Source: Xanthobacteraceae bacterium
GTDB taxonomy: Bacteria > Pseudomonadota > Alphaproteobacteria > Rhizobiales > Xanthobacteraceae
Direction: 5' to 3'
NCBI GenBank assembly: GCA_019745775.1
Contig: JAIESR010000057.1
Span: forward strand, 1 to 54,032
Length of the DNA stretch: 54,032 nt
Numbering within the stretch: the first letter of the stretch is position 1; every line of letters begins with the position of its first letter. Under the pieces are notes generated by a model. That model worked only from the letters and a program-made list of their open reading frames with translations, ran no database searches and was not told the DNA's origin. A program made the translations under genes and the position numbers. This document shows positions 6,615 to 54,021 of this stretch, one piece after another.

Positions 6615-9407
6615 CTACTCCGCCGCCACCATCGTCGGTGAGCGAACCGCCTCGACCTTGGCCGCGCAGAACTTGAACTCGGGAATTTTCCCGAACGGAT
6701 CGAGCTTCGGATTGGTGAGCAGGTTCGCCGCCGCCTCGGCATAGGCGAACGGGATGAACACCACGCCGTCCGGCACCGCGTCGTCCTGGCGCGCGGCGAG
6801 CTCCACCGTGCCGCGGCGGGTCGAGACGCGCACCCTGTCGCCGGGTGCGATGCCGAGCTTCGCGATCGTGCCGGGCGAGAGCTGCGCGCTCGCCGACGGC
6901 TCGATCGCGTCGAGCACCTGCGCGCGCCGCGTCATCGATCCGGTGTGCCAATGCTCGAGCTGGCGCCCGGTCGAGAGGATGAACGGATACTCGGCGTCAG
7001 GCACCTCGTCCGGCGGCTGTAATTTCGTGGCGACGAGCTTCGCAAAGCCGCCCGGACGCGGGAAGCCCTTGTCGAACACCACGTCGCGGCCGGGCTGGTC
7101 GGGCGCGTCGGAGGGATAGGTGACGGCGTCCTCGCGCGCGATGCGCTCCCAGGAGATGTTGGCAAGCGCCGGCATCATCGACGCCATCTCGGTGTAGACC
7201 TCGCTGACATGCCGGTAGTTCCAGCCGCAGCCGAGGCGGTTGGCGATGTCCTGGATGATCCAGAGATCGTGGCGCGCCTCCCCCGGCAGCGGCAGCGCCT
7301 GGCGGCCGATCTGCACCTGGCGGTTGGTGTTGGTGACGGTGCCGTCCTTCTCCGGCCAGCCCGACGCCGGCAGCACCACGTCGGCATAGACGGCGGTCTC
7401 GGTGAGGAACAGGTCCTGCACCACGAGATGCTCGAGATGCGCGAGCGCCTGCCGCGCGTGGTTGAGGTCGGGGTCCGACATCGCCGGGTTCTCGCCCTCG
7501 ATATACATACCCTTGATCTCGCCGGCGTGCACCGCCTGCATGATTTCGACCACGGTCTTGCCGCGCTTGGGATCGAGCTTCACGCCCCAGGCTTTTTCAT
7601 ACTGCGCACGGATCTCCGGATTCTCGACCGACTTGTAGTCGGGGAAGAACATCGGGATCAGGCCCGCGTCGGACGCGCCCTGCACGTTGTTCTGGCCCCG
7701 CAGCGGATGCAGGCCGGTGCCGGGACGGCCGATCTGCCCGGTGATGAGCGACAGCGCGATCAGGCAGCGTGCATTGTCGGTGCCGTGGGTGTGCTGCGAC
7801 ACGCCCATGCCCCAGAAGATGATCGCGCTCTCGGCGCGGGCATAGGCGCGCGCGACCTCGCGCAACGTGTCGGCGTCGATGCCGCAGATCGGCGCCATCT
7901 CCTCCGGCGTGAAGTCCCTGATGTTCTGCTTCCAGGCGTCGAAGCCTTCGACATAGGTCTGGATGTACTGCTGGTCGTAGAGCTTCTCGGTGACGATGAC
8001 GTTGAGCATGGCGTTGAGCATCGCCACGTCGGCGCCGTTCTTGAACTGGAGCATCTTCCAGGCATGGCGCTTGAGCGCCTGCCCGCGCGGGTCCATCACC
8101 ACGAGCTTGGCGCCGCGCTTGGCCGCCTGCTTGAAGAACGTCGCCGCCACCGGATGGTTCTCGGTCGGGTTGGCGCCGATCACGATGATGAAGTCGGAAT
8201 TCTTGCACTCGTTGAAGGTCGCGGTCACCGCCGCTGAGCCGACGCCCTCGAGCAGCGCCGCCACCGACGAGGCGTGGCAGAGCCGCGTGCAGTGGTCGAC
8301 GTTGTTGGTGCCGAAGCCGGTGCGCACCAGCTTCTGGAACAGGTAGGCCTCCTCGTTCGAGCCCTTGGCGGAGCCGAAGCCGGCGAGCGCCTGCGGCCCG
8401 TCGCGGTCGCGGATTTTCTTCAAGCCGCCGGCGGCGCGGTCGAGCGCCTCCTCCCAGGTCGCCGCGCGGAAATGCGTCCACGGGTTCGCCGGGTCGATGA
8501 ACTCGTGCGGCACCTTCGGCACGCCGTCCTTGCGGATCATCGGCTTCAGCAGGCGGTGCGCGTTGTGCACGTAGTCGAAGCCGAAGCGGCCCTTGACGCA
8601 CAGGCGGTTCTGATTGGCCGGGCCATCGCGGCCGCTGACCGCGACGATCTTGTCGTTCTTGATCTCATAGGTGAGCTGGCAGCCGACGCCGCAATACGGG
8701 CACACGCTGTCGACAGTGCGATCGGGCTTGCCGGTGTAGACGTTGTCCGCGTCGACCATGGTCGCCGGCATCAGCGCGCCGGTCGGACAGGCCTGCACGC
8801 ACTCGCCGCAGGCGACGCAGGTCGAGGCGCCCATCGGGTCGTCGAAGTCGAACACGATCTTTTCGAGATGGCCGCGGCCGGCCATGCCGATCACGTCGTT
8901 GACCTGCACCTCGCGGCAGGCGCGGACGCAGAGATTGCAGTGGATGCACGCGTCGAGATTGACCGCCATCGCGACGTGGCTGCGGTCCGGCGCCGGCACC
9001 TCGATCGGCGCGCGCTTGGGGAAGCGGCCAGCGTCGGCTTTCAGGCGCCTGGCGGTTTTCCAGAGCTCCGAGTCCGGGTCGTGCGCGTGCGCCTGATCCG
9101 GCTGGTCGGTCATCAAGAGCTCGGCGACCATGCGGCGTGCGGTTAAGGCGCGCTCGGTCTGCGTCTTCACCTTCATGCCGGGCGTCGGCGTGCGGATGCA
9201 GCTCGCCGCCAGCACGCGCTCGCCTTCGACCTCGACCATGCAGACGCGGCAATTGCCGTCGGGGCGATAGCCGGGCTTCGGCGAATAGCACAGGTGCGGC
9301 AGCTTGATGTCGAGCCGGCGCGCGGCGCGGAAGATCGTCTCGCCGGGGCGGATGTCGACCTCACGATCGTCGATGAAGAAGGTGGCGGATTTGGCTGCTT
9401 GGGTCAT
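6615..9407 (-). CDS. fdsA: NAD-dependent formate dehydrogenase, molybdenum/tungsten alpha subunit
   Basis: Catalytic subunit oxidising formate to CO2 and passing electrons to the NAD-reducing FdsB. The frame is open to 9767, but the ATG at 9407 begins the family N-terminus and has GAGGGAA upstream. The 930 residues show a [2Fe-2S] site (C40, C53, C56, C70), two ferredoxin-type [4Fe-4S] sites (C154/157/160/164 and C197/200/203/207), the cofactor-proximal cluster (C236, C239, C243, C270), then the bis-MGD domains with C377-H378 as metal ligand and catalytic His. A later PLRGQNN segment carries the conserved Arg. The His-Cys3 cluster motif of longer homologues is absent. Its ATG overlaps the stop of the DUF559 gene (ATGA). 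Confidence 0.95.
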   Translation of the reverse strand: MTQAAKSATFFIDDREVDIRPGETIFRAARRLDIKLPHLCYSPKPGYRPDGNCRVCMVEVEGERVLAASCIRTPTPGMKVKTQTERALTARRMVAELLMTDQPDQAHAHDPDSELWKTARRLKADAGRFPKRAPIEVPAPDRSHVAMAVNLDACIHCNLCVRACREVQVNDVIGMAGRGHLEKIVFDFDDPMGASTCVACGECVQACPTGALMPATMVDADNVYTGKPDRTVDSVCPYCGVGCQLTYEIKNDKIVAVSGRDGPANQNRLCVKGRFGFDYVHNAHRLLKPMIRKDGVPKVPHEFIDPANPWTHFRAATWEEALDRAAGGLKKIRDRDGPQALAGFGSAKGSNEEAYLFQKLVRTGFGTNNVDHCTRLCHASSVAALLEGVGSAAVTATFNECKNSDFIIVIGANPTENHPVAATFFKQAAKRGAKLVVMDPRGQALKRHAWKMLQFKNGADVAMLNAMLNVIVTEKLYDQQYIQTYVEGFDAWKQNIRDFTPEEMAPICGIDADTLREVARAYARAESAIIFWGMGVSQHTHGTDNARCLIALSLITGQIGRPGTGLHPLRGQNNVQGASDAGLIPMFFPDYKSVENPEIRAQYEKAWGVKLDPKRGKTVVEIMQAVHAGEIKGMYIEGENPAMSDPDLNHARQALAHLEHLVVQDLFLTETAVYADVVLPASGWPEKDGTVTNTNRQVQIGRQALPLPGEARHDLWIIQDIANRLGCGWNYRHVSEVYTEMASMMPALANISWERIAREDAVTYPSDAPDQPGRDVVFDKGFPRPGGFAKLVATKLQPPDEVPDAEYPFILSTGRQLEHWHTGSMTRRAQVLDAIEPSASAQLSPGTIAKLGIAPGDRVRVSTRRGTVELAARQDDAVPDGVVFIPFAYAEAAANLLTNPKLDPFGKIPEFKFCAAKVEAVRSPTMVAAE

Positions 9408-9850
9408 GGGCCGATTCCCTCGCCGCTCGCCGCAGCGCGCTCCCCTCCCCCTTGTGGGGAGAGGTCGGGGGTGGGGTCTTTCCGCGTCGGCACTCTCTCG
9501 TGTGCCGCCGCCAGAACCGCCTCGCCCACACTTCGCGGCGACTTGAGAACGTCGTTGTTCCTGAAGCGAAGCACGCGATAGCCCTGCGACTCCAGCCACG
9601 CGGTCCGCTTTGCGTCGTATGGGGCGCGCACTTCCGCATGTTGCGAACCGTCGAGTTCGACAACAATCTTCCCGGCGTGCCACGCGAAATCGGCGATGTA
9701 GATGCCAATCGGCGCCTGTCGTCGGAAATGCATCCCGAGTGGCTTCAGCGAGCGCAGCAGGTACCACAGCTTGCGCTCAGCGTCGGCCGGCGCGCGGCGC
9801 AATTGCTGCGCCTGCCCTCTCGTCCGCTTGCTGATCGCACTTTGAGGCAT
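9404..9850 (-). CDS. DUF559 domain protein, Vsr-like endonuclease fold
   Basis: 148-residue protein of the DUF559 family (PD-(D/E)XK / very-short-patch-repair-like fold). Family features are the RRQAPIGIYIADF segment, the acidic KIVVELDGSQH motif with the predicted catalytic Glu/Asp, and a YRVLRFRNNDV segment. It sits between fdsB and fdsA, where it has no metabolic role. Its last ~25 residues (around DLSPQGGGE) are translated from a REP-like palindrome, and the inverted copy of that palindrome lies just upstream at 9883-9939. The stop codon overlaps the fdsA start, so fdsA translation may be coupled to it. Function in vivo is unknown. Confidence 0.85.
   Translation of the reverse strand: MPQSAISKRTRGQAQQLRRAPADAERKLWYLLRSLKPLGMHFRRQAPIGIYIADFAWHAGKIVVELDGSQHAEVRAPYDAKRTAWLESQGYRVLRFRNNDVLKSPRSVGEAVLAAAHERVPTRKDPTPDLSPQGGGERAAASGEGIGP
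9440..9478 (+). repeat. REP-like palindrome, left copy flanking DUF559
   Basis: GC-rich imperfect hairpin (CCCTCCCCCTTGTGGGGAG core followed by a GGGGGTGGGGT tail) read on the plus strand. It lies inside the 3' coding end of the DUF559 gene. The same motif occurs inverted at 9883-9939 and as a doublet at 33881-33995. Confidence 0.8.
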
Positions 9851-9882
9851 GTCCGTCGCCGTCTCCTAAGTCCTCGTACGCC

Positions 9883-9939
9883 GCCACCCCACCCCGGCGA
9901 GCTTCGCTCGCCACCCCTCCCCACAAGGGGGAGGGGCTA
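9883..9939 (-). repeat. REP-like palindrome, right copy flanking DUF559
   Basis: Inverted partner of the copy at 9440-9478. Read on the minus strand it begins CCCTCCCCCTTGTGGGGAGG, then has an inner small hairpin (GGCGAGCGAAGCTCGCC) and the GGGGTGGGGT tail. It lies between the fdsB stop and the DUF559 start, so the two copies bracket the DUF559 gene in inverted orientation. Confidence 0.8.
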
Positions 9940-9965: not shown

Positions 9966-11693
9966 TCACCAGCGCCCGAGCGGCTTCGACAATTCGTCCG
10001 GGAAATATTTCAGCACGCACAAGAGCGGATTGGGCGCGGCCTGACCCAGGCCGCAGATCGACGCATCGCGCATCAGCGTCGAGAGCCCCGTCAGCAGCGC
10101 GGGGTTCCACGGACCCTGCGCCATCAGCTTCACCGCCTTCTCGGCGCCGACGCGGCACGGCGTGCATTGGCCGCAGCTTTCGTCCTCGAAGAACTTCACC
10201 AGGTTGAGCGCGACCGCCTTCATGTCGTCCTCCCCGGACAGGATCACCACCGCGTGCGATCCGACGAAGCAGCCGTATTTTTCGAGCGTGCCGAAATCGA
10301 GCGGCTCGTCCGCCATCGACGCCGGCAAGATGCCGCCGGAGGCGCCGCCGGGCAGATAGCCCTTGAAGGTCTGCCCGTCCTCCATGCCGCCGCAATACTC
10401 CTCGATCAGCTCGCGCGCGGTGACGCCGGCCGGCGCCAGCACGACGCCGGGCTTCTTCACGCGGCCCGACACCGAGAAGCTGCGGAAGCCCTTGCGCTCG
10501 CGGCGGCCGTGCGACGCGAACCACGCCGCGCCCTGCTCGACGATGTCGCGCACCCAGTAGAGCGTCTCGACGTTCTGCTCGAGCGTCGGGCGGCCGAACA
10601 GGCCGACCTGCGCGACGTAAGGCGGGCGATGGCGGGGCAGCCCGCGCTTGCCCTCGATCGACTCGATCATCGCGGACTCTTCGCCGCAGATATAGGCGCC
10701 GGCGCCGCGGCGCAGATGCAGCCGCGTGTGCGAGGCGAGCCCGGCCGCCCTCACCTTCTCGAATTCCTGTTCGAGCAGCAGCCGCACCTCGGGATATTCG
10801 TCGCGCACATAGATGTACGTATCCGGCGCTTCGATCACCCAGGCCGCGATCAGCATGCCTTCGATGAAGCGATGCGGGTCCTGCTCGAGGTAGTGGCGGT
10901 CCTTGAACGTGCCCGGCTCGCCTTCATCGCAGTTGACGGCGAACAGGCGCGGCGCGGGCTCGGCGCGCACCAGCGACCACTTGCGGCCGGTCGGGAACCC
11001 CGCGCCGCCGAGGCCGCGCAGGCCGGCGTCGCTGACGATCTTGATCAGGTCGTCGCGCGTGCGCTTGCCGGCGAGGCAATCGCTCAGCAGCGCGTAACCG
11101 CCGTTGTTGCGGTAGGCCGCGAGATCGTTCGGCGTCGCGAACGCATGCGGATGCGGCGGCGCCTTCGCGGTCGAGGCAACCTTGTCCGGCGTCGCCTTGA
11201 ACACCTGCATGTGCCCGACCGCGACGACCGGCGCGCGATCGCAGGCGCCCATGCAGGGCGCGCGCACGACCCGCACGTCGCGACCGAGCTTGGCGGGAAG
11301 ATCGCGGATGAGATGTTCGGCGCCCCGCATGGCACACGAGAGCGAGTCGCAGACACGAACGGTCACAGGCGCCGGCGGCGTCTCGCCTTCCTTCACCACA
11401 TCGAAATGCGCGTAGAAGGTCGCGACCTCGTAGACCTCGGCGAGCGCAAGCTTCATCTCGGCGGCGAGCGCCGCGAGATGCGCGGCCGACAGATGCCCGT
11501 GGCGATCCTGGATCAGATGCAGATGCTCGATCAGCAGATCCCGCTGACGCGAGCGGGCGCCAAGCAGCGCGCGCACCTCGTCGAGCGCCGCCGGATCGAC
11601 CTGCCGGCCCTTGGGCGTGCGCCGCGGCCGCCGGCCATCGCCGTTCGGTGCGGCGCCGTTTGTGTTGGGATTAGAAAGGGTTGTCGTGCTCAT
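9966..11693 (-). CDS. fdsB: NAD-dependent formate dehydrogenase, fused gamma/beta (NuoE-NuoF) subunit
   Basis: Diaphorase part of the formate dehydrogenase. The 575-residue protein is a natural fusion: residues ~30-190 are NuoE-like with a [2Fe-2S] site (CDSLSC and PCMGAC), and residues ~195-575 are NuoF-like with an FMN/NAD region (GLRGLGGAGFPTGRKW, then GAYICGEESA) and a [4Fe-4S] site (CGQC..C and later SICGLG). This resembles the two-subunit Fdh1AB arrangement known from Methylobacterium rather than separate FdsG and FdsB. It is first in the operon and separated from fdsA by the DUF559 insertion. The promoter region is shared with the divergent LysR gene. Confidence 0.95.
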   Translation of the reverse strand: MSTTTLSNPNTNGAAPNGDGRRPRRTPKGRQVDPAALDEVRALLGARSRQRDLLIEHLHLIQDRHGHLSAAHLAALAAEMKLALAEVYEVATFYAHFDVVKEGETPPAPVTVRVCDSLSCAMRGAEHLIRDLPAKLGRDVRVVRAPCMGACDRAPVVAVGHMQVFKATPDKVASTAKAPPHPHAFATPNDLAAYRNNGGYALLSDCLAGKRTRDDLIKIVSDAGLRGLGGAGFPTGRKWSLVRAEPAPRLFAVNCDEGEPGTFKDRHYLEQDPHRFIEGMLIAAWVIEAPDTYIYVRDEYPEVRLLLEQEFEKVRAAGLASHTRLHLRRGAGAYICGEESAMIESIEGKRGLPRHRPPYVAQVGLFGRPTLEQNVETLYWVRDIVEQGAAWFASHGRRERKGFRSFSVSGRVKKPGVVLAPAGVTARELIEEYCGGMEDGQTFKGYLPGGASGGILPASMADEPLDFGTLEKYGCFVGSHAVVILSGEDDMKAVALNLVKFFEDESCGQCTPCRVGAEKAVKLMAQGPWNPALLTGLSTLMRDASICGLGQAAPNPLLCVLKYFPDELSKPLGRW

Positions 11694-32730: not shown

Positions 32731-32895
32731 CACCTCTCCCCGCATAGCCCGTCGAAGACGGGCGTGAACGCCCTTTCGCGGGGGAGAGGTCGGCGCACGA
32801 AGTGCGCCGGGTGAGGGGGAGCTTCCATGAGTCATTGCATATGGAGGGCCCCCTCACCCCGACCCTCTCCCCGCAAGCGGGGAGAGGGAGCGCAC
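32731..32895. repeat. REP-like inverted doublet between fhs and the formyltransferase
   Basis: Left unit 32731-32820 (CCTCTCCCCGC arm, an inserted module, GGGGGAGAGGTCGG, tail GGGTGAGGGGG) and right unit 32849-32895 in opposite orientation. The right unit has perfect 10-bp arms CCCTCTCCCC (32863-32872) / GGGGAGAGGG (32879-32888). Fills most of the 264-bp gap between the two genes; a transcript crossing it would form strong hairpins. Confidence 0.8.
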
Positions 32896-33880: not shown

Positions 33881-33995
33881 TCCCTCCCCCCTTGTGGGGG
33901 AGGGTTAGGGAGGGGGTGGCTGTGCATGGCACTTACCAACAACGACCCCCACCCCGCTCGCCTTCGGCGAGCGACCCTCCCCACAAGGGGGAGGG
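33881..33995. repeat. REP-like inverted doublet between formyltransferase and frc
   Basis: Unit 33881-33919 (CCCTCCCCCCTTGTGGGGGAGGG core plus G-rich tail) and inverted unit 33946-33995 (with inner GCTCGCCTTCGGCGAGC hairpin), separated by about 26 bp. Same motif and same orientation as the pair that brackets the DUF559 gene at 9.4-9.9 kb, but with no gene between. Confidence 0.82.
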
Positions 33996-44080: not shown

Positions 44081-44248
44081 CTCCCTCTCCCCACCCGAAC
44101 TCGGGTTTACCCGAGTTCGGCATAAAAGGAGCGGTCGAAGTCGGAACCATCCGACGTCGACTGGGGAGAGAGGTGGAGTGAGGGGGAATAGGTCCCTCGA
44201 TAGGTTCGAACCCCCTCACCCTACCCCTCTCCCCTCCGGGGAGAGGGG
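44081..44248. repeat. REP-like inverted doublet with inserted perfect hairpin
   Basis: Left unit starts CTCCCTCTCCCC at 44081 and closes CTGGGGAGAGAGG around 44161-44173, with a GAGTGAGGGGGA tail; it is interrupted by an insert containing CCGAACTCGGG (44095-44105), loop TTTA, CCCGAGTTCGG (44110-44120), a perfect 11-bp hairpin. The inverted unit is 44211-44248 (CCCCTCACCC...CCCCTCTCCCC/GGGGAGAGGGG). Lies between the racemase-like gene and the first SsuA gene. Confidence 0.8.
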
Positions 44249-53918: not shown

Positions 53919-53961
53919 GCTCCCTCTCCCCGCTTGCGGGGAGAGGGTCGGGGTGAGGGGC
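53919..53961 (+). repeat. Single REP-like hairpin near the right edge
   Basis: Perfect 10-bp arms CCCTCTCCCC (53922-53931) and GGGGAGAGGG (53938-53947) around GCTTGC, followed by the TCGGGGTGAGGGG tail. Same motif as the right unit at 32849-32895. Its inverted mate may lie beyond the window. Confidence 0.8.

Positions 53962-53985: not shown

Positions 53986-54021
<36 letters not shown>

Follow-up and report, generated by a model that had tools for sequence, protein, structure and literature searches.

Stand-alone DUF559 nuclease genes mostly lie between inverted palindromic repeats and probably form REPtron-like units

In the 54,032-nt stretch of Xanthobacteraceae DNA analyzed here (the window, on contig C112 of a 6.3 Mb genome in 147 contigs), a small gene for a DUF559 (PF04480) nuclease lies within the fds formate dehydrogenase operon, flanked by a pair of palindromic repeats in inverted orientation. 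We find that stand-alone DUF559 genes are generally flanked by matched inverted repeats, and that the class of repeat follows the protein. A comparable arrangement is the REPtron, in which the gene for a repetitive extragenic palindrome (REP)-associated tyrosine transposase (RAYT; TnpA_REP, a Y1/HUH enzyme) is flanked by GTAG REPs, with REP doublets forming hairpins (REPINs) and bacterial interspersed mosaic elements (BIMEs) as non-autonomous forms (Di Nocera 2013, PMC3733652; Bertels 2021, PMC8049555). Our preferred reading, which we hold to be probable, is that the DUF559 gene and its ends form a REPtron-like unit, with a nuclease of the Vsr/I-Bth0305I fold in the place of the RAYT, between inverted copies of its cognate repeat. 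A palindrome–nuclease–palindrome unit had been proposed in the first-pass annotation of the window, and the comparisons below support it; that the unit moves, we infer.

Matched inverted repeats flank stand-alone DUF559 genes

To each locus we assign a score, the alignment of the 260 bp left of the DUF559 domain against the reverse complement of the 260 bp right of it. In the family sample (118 stand-alone matches of at least 77 bits; 77 loci were fetched, and 75 have scores once L011 and L061, at contig edges, are set aside), scores of at least 18, 22 and 25 are reached by 71, 69 and 65 of the 75 genes. The corresponding counts are 107, 19 and 5 of 2115 for sliding windows over the same loci, 9, 6 and 5 of 162 for ordinary genes (called with a simple script), and 4, 0 and 0 of 21 for DUF559 domains fused to the C-terminus of long open reading frames (ORFs). 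DUF559 genes are thus enriched beside palindromes, as the first-pass annotation had expected. These three controls rule out chance density of repeats as the cause of the flanking. They also bear on whether ordinary intergenic repeats, such as terminators or mRNA stabilizers, are simply dense here and flank the gene by chance: the repeats do sit in intergenic gaps at the junctions read, as such repeats would, but the far lower control values at 22 and the co-variation of repeat class with protein described below make this explanation very improbable.

The window's own genome holds nine DUF559 genes (ten matches), and all eight stand-alone ones have a matching inverted pair. Given the density of CTCCCC-N1-12-GGGGAG cores in this genome, a gene would by chance have one within 260 bp on each flank with a probability of ~7e-5, so the pairing goes beyond chance. 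Beside one of these genes (L007, contig C114) lies a duplicate of its own 3' end plus a palindrome, resembling a decayed second element.

When the family and phylum samples are taken together (the phylum loci being 28 new ones and 40 stretches picked from the match list), 117 of 147 stand-alone genes score at least 22. By distance, these are 8/8 in the own genome, 7/7 in the same genus, 57/64 in the family, 14/23 in the order, 14/19 in the class, 16/24 in the phylum and 1/2 in named Azospirillum. Because of how loci were picked, the sampled genes are high-scoring ones and not a random draw. The set of 147 excludes L049 (a split, low-scoring domain), L110 (the same gene as in L164), the IMG/VR and named plasmid loci, and loci from other collections, namely L040–L042 (26.0, 19.0 and 7.0; L040 is the gene of genome G033, discussed below), L202–L206 (9–12) and L208 (46.0). 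From the separate IMG/VR collection, we considered 15 high-scoring loci whose flanks span at least 150 bp, of which 12 score 22 or more and 13 score 21 or more; these 15 include two near-duplicates and exclude lower-scoring phage-like domains (L307–L309, L311 and L312; 11.5–14.5) as well as four loci short of flank.

A protein clade without terminal inverted repeats (TIRs), which would mark a domesticated lineage, is not seen: TIR-less genes are scattered over the tree (24 changes versus 27.4 when shuffled). As a separate observation, many genomes of the family carry DUF559 fused at the C-terminus of ORFs of ~400–600 aa (L009, L083–L102), with no terminal repeats scoring at least 22, possibly a domesticated branch.

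Repeat classes, gene-less pairs and the enzyme

From outside to inside, an element end begins with hairpin 1 (such as CCTCTCCCC..GGGGAGAGG), followed in many classes by a variable hairpin 2, and closes with a G-rich inner motif (for example, GGGTGAGGGG, GGGGTGGGG or GGGGAGGGG) that resembles the 3' arm of hairpin 1. In some elements, the match between left and right ends extends past hairpin 1.

The class of these repeats is specific to the protein. Nine classes with at least three members (57 elements) require 11 changes on the protein tree, compared to a shuffled mean of 38.2 and minimum of 33. In a choice test, each element is compared with a second genome that holds two or more elements whose flanks are not homologous to its own, and we ask whether the closest protein there also has the closest repeat. 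This is so in 51/53 cases at a protein similarity of at least 0.65 (15.9 expected), 112/127 at 0.6 (39.0 expected), 214/295 at 0.55 (91.5 expected) and 472/819 at 0.5 (287.7 expected). The correlation of protein and repeat matrices over all pairs is weak (Spearman 0.17, reached by 0/500 free and 1/500 within-genome shuffles), so that the link, strong between related proteins, weakens as they diverge. Since the choice test used non-homologous flanks, one repeat class occurs with related proteins at unrelated loci. The first-pass annotation had described a single palindrome as bracketing the window's DUF559 gene; the flanking stands, but in place of one sequence there are many classes, and each goes with a particular DUF559 clade.

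Gene-less inverted pairs are dispersed through the genome. Exact CTCCCC-N1-12-GGGGAG cores number 198 in the own genome versus 2 for the reversed control pattern, and in 454 kb of it, window included, we observe seven inverted pairs. Five span 91–110 bp, and the remaining two, both on contig C147, consist of both ends of a DUF559 element of the L003 type at ~88–91% DNA identity with the gene middle missing, as in non-autonomous derivatives. Across 61 genomes of the family there are 4708 cores versus 226 control matches, with a median density of 17.9 per Mb in the 45 genomes with the gene and 3.9 in the 16 without. The excess of cores tracks the number of stand-alone DUF559 genes of at least 77 bits (Spearman 0.66 over the 61 genomes, kinship ignored); for the number of Y1 transposases, the value is 0.28 (p 0.03). 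A RAYT is ruled out as the mover of the repeats in the own genome, where the Y1/RAYT domain (PF01797) has no match at E <=0.001, a search that did not survey other transposase families.

The protein itself is predicted to have a nuclease fold of the Vsr-like/I-Bth0305I type. An AlphaFold2 model of the 148-aa window protein has a predicted local distance difference test (pLDDT) value of 85, with 92/148 residues reaching 90, and residues E25, D54, E65, D67, H71 and D79 are invariant in alignments of 20 and 18 sequences. In profile searches, the best match is 3hrl, a gonococcal DUF559-type structure (4.8e-37), followed by 3r3p, the I-Bth0305I homing endonuclease domain (3.4e-4), and Vsr (0.36). 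Foldseek comparison of the model gives template modeling (TM) scores by target of 0.89 for 3hrl and 0.76–0.78 for 3r3p, with Vsr (1vsr, 1cw0) more distant at ~0.4. The window protein scores 120.2 bits against PF04480, for which the curated cut-off is 20.6, and thus belongs to DUF559, its only profile match apart from MTES_1575 below cut-off. A defense gene and a phage gene were considered and rejected, as there is no real PADLOC match and the PHROG matches are weak.

Presence, absence and alternative readings at host sites

The gene is variably present at the sites compared. Of 30 fdsB–fdsA loci fetched from the family, window included, only two hold it: the window and G033, a genome of another genus. 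L152 retains a gutted copy in which the DUF559 C-terminus and the right palindrome remain, and L149 the right palindrome only. The other 26 are without DUF559 sequence (L146 among them has a lone short hairpin), so that loci lacking the gene, which the first-pass annotation had proposed to look for, do exist. Both same-genus genomes belong to these 26, and neither has a palindrome there. Recent insertion of the window copy is nevertheless rejected, since G033 has the gene at the same site with 84% domain identity and the pair shows purifying selection (dN 0.11, dS 1.46). In the frc–ft gap that holds the window's gene-less pair, the pair is present in G055 and not seen in the same-genus genomes G052 and G008; elsewhere the gap is taken up by repeats of other classes, and a DUF559 domain is found in none of the 30 loci.

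A second genus (G130 and its relatives), in which 61 genomes were searched and 30 loci read, offers two further sites. At the first, with one locus at a contig end (L284) dropped, the 29 scored loci comprise ten with an empty or short spacer (L273 with a lone hairpin), nine with a gene-less pair, seven with a DUF559 element of one class and three with an element of another. By eye, some of the gene-less pairs have a right end like that of the DUF559 element. On the tree of the flanks, the four states require 14 changes and gene versus no gene requires 8, with labels hardly more clustered than when shuffled. At the second site, the gene is found in 4/30 loci, gene-less pairs of another class in 15 by our own count, a single hairpin or half an element end in several, and no repeat in two (L339 and L340). 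Each of the two sites varies between loci: a gene, a gene-less pair, a scar or nothing may be present.

The main rival reading is homing, in which the DUF559 nuclease would cut an allele carrying a palindrome pair or an empty gap and be copied in by host recombination, the palindromes being a split target and not transposon ends. Such a process would fit the alternation of gene and gene-less pair at one site within one genus, the few gene copies, which relatives often share at corresponding sites (as judged from 140 listed out of 631 ortholog and flank alignments, the scope of all such comparisons here), and the rank of the I-Bth0305I catalytic domain as the closest solved relative after 3hrl. 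One-allele homing would not, however, give proteins of one class at unrelated loci with the same repeats, deleted copies at other loci, or short gene-less pairs dispersed across the genome, and the fds site has no palindrome in the two same-genus genomes. We therefore regard homing as unlikely.

On the REPtron-like reading, the nuclease most likely recognizes its own hairpins, perhaps when they are extruded or single-stranded during replication, and would nick or cut there. Host replication and repair could then copy or excise gene-less inverted pairs, which resemble REPINs, and, rarely, the gene-bearing unit too. Single-hairpin scars, as found at the second site, would be left by cleavage at a pair of inverted hairpins or by slippage across it. 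The gene, tending to align with its upstream neighbor, would pass on vertically at low copy under purifying selection while the repeats scatter.

The population behavior of the gene resembles that of RAYTs, for which few copies, vertical inheritance and purifying selection are described (Bertels 2021, PMC8049555). Purifying selection is seen in 16/17 compared pairs, with dN/dS of ~0.05–0.25 by our own division; in the other pair, dS is not estimable. One clear duplication within a genome appears among the alignments listed (L164; 86% over 589 bp, unrelated flanks). The orientation of the DUF559 gene is that of its upstream neighbor in 62/73 scored cases and that of both neighbors in 49/73; ordinary genes match both neighbors in 65/132 (simple gene caller). 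Host sites include an annotated sufB–DUF559–sufC row in Sphingomonas, and other gaps lie ahead of what we take, from N-terminal residues, to be glyS-like and pheT-like genes. The RAYT analogy drawn in the first-pass annotation accordingly holds for the gene-less pairs, the few copies, the vertical inheritance and the co-variation of repeat and enzyme.

Several observations weigh against a REPtron-like unit. A score below 22 is found for 30 of the 147 stand-alone genes, and only 5 of 11 named plasmid loci reach it (two Deinococcus, Pseudanabaena, Sinorhizobium meliloti and Sphingomonas, as opposed to Picosynechococcus at 16.5, Synechocystis, Thermoactinomyces, Shinella, Neisseria and Escherichia coli). 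Among the alignments listed, near-identical elements are mostly orthologs with aligned flanks, and for this reason movement of the gene looks rare. The sites compared show no target-site duplication and no nucleotide-clean empty site; gene-less sites differ in their spacer, and the short spacer of the g53 site looks replaced, not interrupted. The changes of state could be losses or homologous replacement, as the tree is blind to gain versus loss. The correlation of cores with gene number disregards kinship, and it has outliers in both directions: G021 and G009 are rich in palindromes without a stand-alone match of at least 77 bits (a 69-bit match in a 163-aa frame of G009 may be a divergent DUF559 gene), and G006, G051 and G060 have the gene and few palindromes. 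Finally, the authors who characterized Caulobacter VsrA, a DUF559 protein, propose that it serves as a mismatch-repair nuclease (PMC12907096).

This last proposal leads to a different account, in which the protein would be a host repair or maintenance nuclease, acting in Vsr-like mismatch repair or in hairpin or cruciform processing, and carried along by REP-type repeats that another activity moves. The Vsr-like fold, purifying selection and vertical inheritance agree with it. VsrA is described as SOS-induced and needed for the SOS response in cells without a cytosine methyltransferase (PMC12907096), and the DUF559 gene DR_0221 is placed among DNA-repair genes in an expression table for Deinococcus radiodurans (PMC6712171). 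A repair enzyme would not, however, need a private repeat class at both ends or repeats that co-vary with the protein, its presence would not be expected to be patchy at each site, and the own genome offers no Y1/RAYT to move the repeats, within the domain search described above. We consider this account somewhat less likely still than homing.

Three potential clean empty sites or boundaries were set aside. The five A. brasilense and A. argentinense plasmid loci inspected (L201–L205) all share the gene and have, by eye, palindromes on the left side only, with the right end missing. In E. coli, an efflux operon fills the gap in both ycjD-lacking strains that were inspected. The element boundary on S. 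meliloti pSymB is unreadable because ISRm16 abuts it. In strain Ak57, this pSymB unit (L320) is flanked on either side by nested repeats, and its outer inverted arms are long.

Known systems, E. coli ycjD and the window locus

Like REPtrons, DUF559 units have a gene between inverted palindromic repeats, many gene-less inverted pairs, intergenic siting, a low-copy and vertically inherited gene, and a repeat class matched to the enzyme. Unlike REPtrons, they encode a Vsr-like nuclease of the PD-(D/E)XK type that has no HUH/Tyr domain, which places them outside the RAYTs; several enzyme classes occur per genome; and their ends combine a C-rich hairpin with a G-rich inner motif. They also lack the tags of known REPs beside hairpin 1. 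Among the 195 of 232 ends with a readable core, GTAG/CTAC occurs within 12 nt of hairpin 1 in 5 (shuffled mean 15.3) and CGTC/GACG in 8 (shuffled mean 21.5), and neither is enriched. The DUF559-flanking repeats thus fit neither the GTAG nor the CGTC class of Di Nocera 2013 (PMC3733652), the latter being an alphaproteobacterial class for which that paper gives no known transposase.

TIRtrons are a second point of comparison. In these, RAYT-like genes (TIRYTs) have long TIRs, some with a GGGGWSAS motif, and the repeats are also dispersed (PMC3733652). DUF559 units share the TIRs around a small nuclease gene, the G-rich motif and the dispersed repeats, and differ in that TIRYTs are HUH/tyrosine enzymes. 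With I-Bth0305I, they share the fold of the nuclease core; unlike it, the DUF559 gene is not seen in an intron or intein, and it has dispersed flanking palindromes and scattered non-autonomous copies. The likeness to Vsr extends to Caulobacter VsrA, which shares the DUF559 domain (PMC12907096). As described there, the vsr genes of E. coli and Neisseria lie beside a cytosine methyltransferase gene, whereas the partner of DUF559 here is a class of palindromic repeats.

In E. coli K-12, ycjD is a DUF559 gene followed by hairpin repeats of similar build, which are one-sided, unlike those of the DUF559 units. The 57-bp repeat beside it, which we take to be BoxC, resembles between 2 and 35 places in each E. 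coli genome, with a median of 19, at a loose E-value limit of 10. With a longer query, and among the matches listed, 19 genomes with ycjD have 10–21 places and 10 chromosomes without it have 1–14, lineage being ignored and one plasmid row excluded. The BoxC family of E. coli is described as having 22–32 copies of 50–56 bp (PMC2267715). Between sapF and fabI (L324–L326), each strain inspected has one of two contents, ycjD or an efflux operon of the eef type. The open-access literature searched, which leaves most subscription papers outside, yielded no link of DUF559 to palindromes and none of ycjD to BoxC.

Taken together, the comparisons suggest that a class of repeats scattered through bacterial genomes is spread by an enzyme hitherto unrecognized. 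The widest form of this proposal would make DUF559 a widespread class of REP/REPIN-mobilizing nucleases unrelated to the HUH/tyrosine RAYTs, with a PD-(D/E)XK-type site acting on hairpin ends and clade-specific palindromes, and the source of many orphan palindromic repeats in Alphaproteobacteria and possibly of E. coli BoxC; we see the chances of this as evenly balanced. If true, it would define a new superfamily of minimal mobile elements, spread by a lone restriction-fold nuclease. If the enzyme does move its repeats, nucleases of the Vsr/restriction type would take their place beside HUH, DDE, serine and tyrosine enzymes among the engines of bacterial mobile elements; the gene would be very small and the repeat code legible from one clade to another. 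Alphaproteobacterial palindromic repeats have had no known mover, as Di Nocera 2013 states for the CGTC class; the C-rich set described here, which is a different one, gains a candidate enzyme from a family still named for its unknown function. Caulobacter VsrA and E. coli YcjD, which both occur in laboratory strains, are recast as DUF559 proteins with testable repeats.

Table 1. Features of the DUF559 element and related repeats in the window
Feature	Position	Strand	Basis or detail
Stand-alone DUF559 (PF04480) nuclease gene, 148 aa	9404..9850	-	ORF and profile match, E=4.6e-35
Upstream host gene, fused fdsG-fdsB-like (thioredoxin-like [2Fe-2S] and 51K domains)	9966..11693	-	ORF and domains
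Downstream host gene fdsA	6615..9407	-	ORF and domains
Downstream terminal repeat	9440..9478	+	Hairpin 1 and inner G-rich motif, no second hairpin
Upstream terminal repeat, inverted	9883..9939	-	Hairpin 1, hairpin 2 (GGCGAGC..GCTCGCC), inner motif GGGGTGGGG
Gene-less inverted pair (REPIN-like, or like a miniature inverted-repeat transposable element) between formyl-CoA-transferase-like and formyltransferase-like genes (names by reading)	33881..33995	.	Fold z -7.2
Solo hairpin core, same repeat type	32867..32884	.	
Solo hairpin core, same repeat type	44229..44243	.	
Solo hairpin core, same repeat type	53926..53943	.	

ORF, domain and repeat readings of the window bear out the first-pass description of the gene between fdsB and fdsA and of its two inverted palindromes, as well as that of the gene-less pair (Table 1). 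Both host genes are intact around the DUF559 gene, whose stop codon overlaps the fdsA start in an ATGA, as read from the sequence. The fdsA-side palindrome is indeed translated, as had been noted, and encodes residues 125–137 in a C-terminal tail of low model confidence (~60 pLDDT). The window pair is among the weaker ones, its left-right score of 22.5 being the seventh lowest of 75, and the fdsA-side copy lacks the second hairpin by our reading. As lone DNA, the upstream copy folds stably (z -5.05 versus shuffles), and the downstream copy folds no better than shuffles (z -0.36), its predicted best fold pairing the 5' arm with the inner motif and not with the 3' arm.

Two further observations concern repeats elsewhere in the window. 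Beside the solo hairpin near the contig end, more than 30 consecutive G occur at 53989–54021, possibly an assembly artifact. At 32780–32892, two facing repeat units of different classes lie between fhs-like and formyltransferase-like genes.

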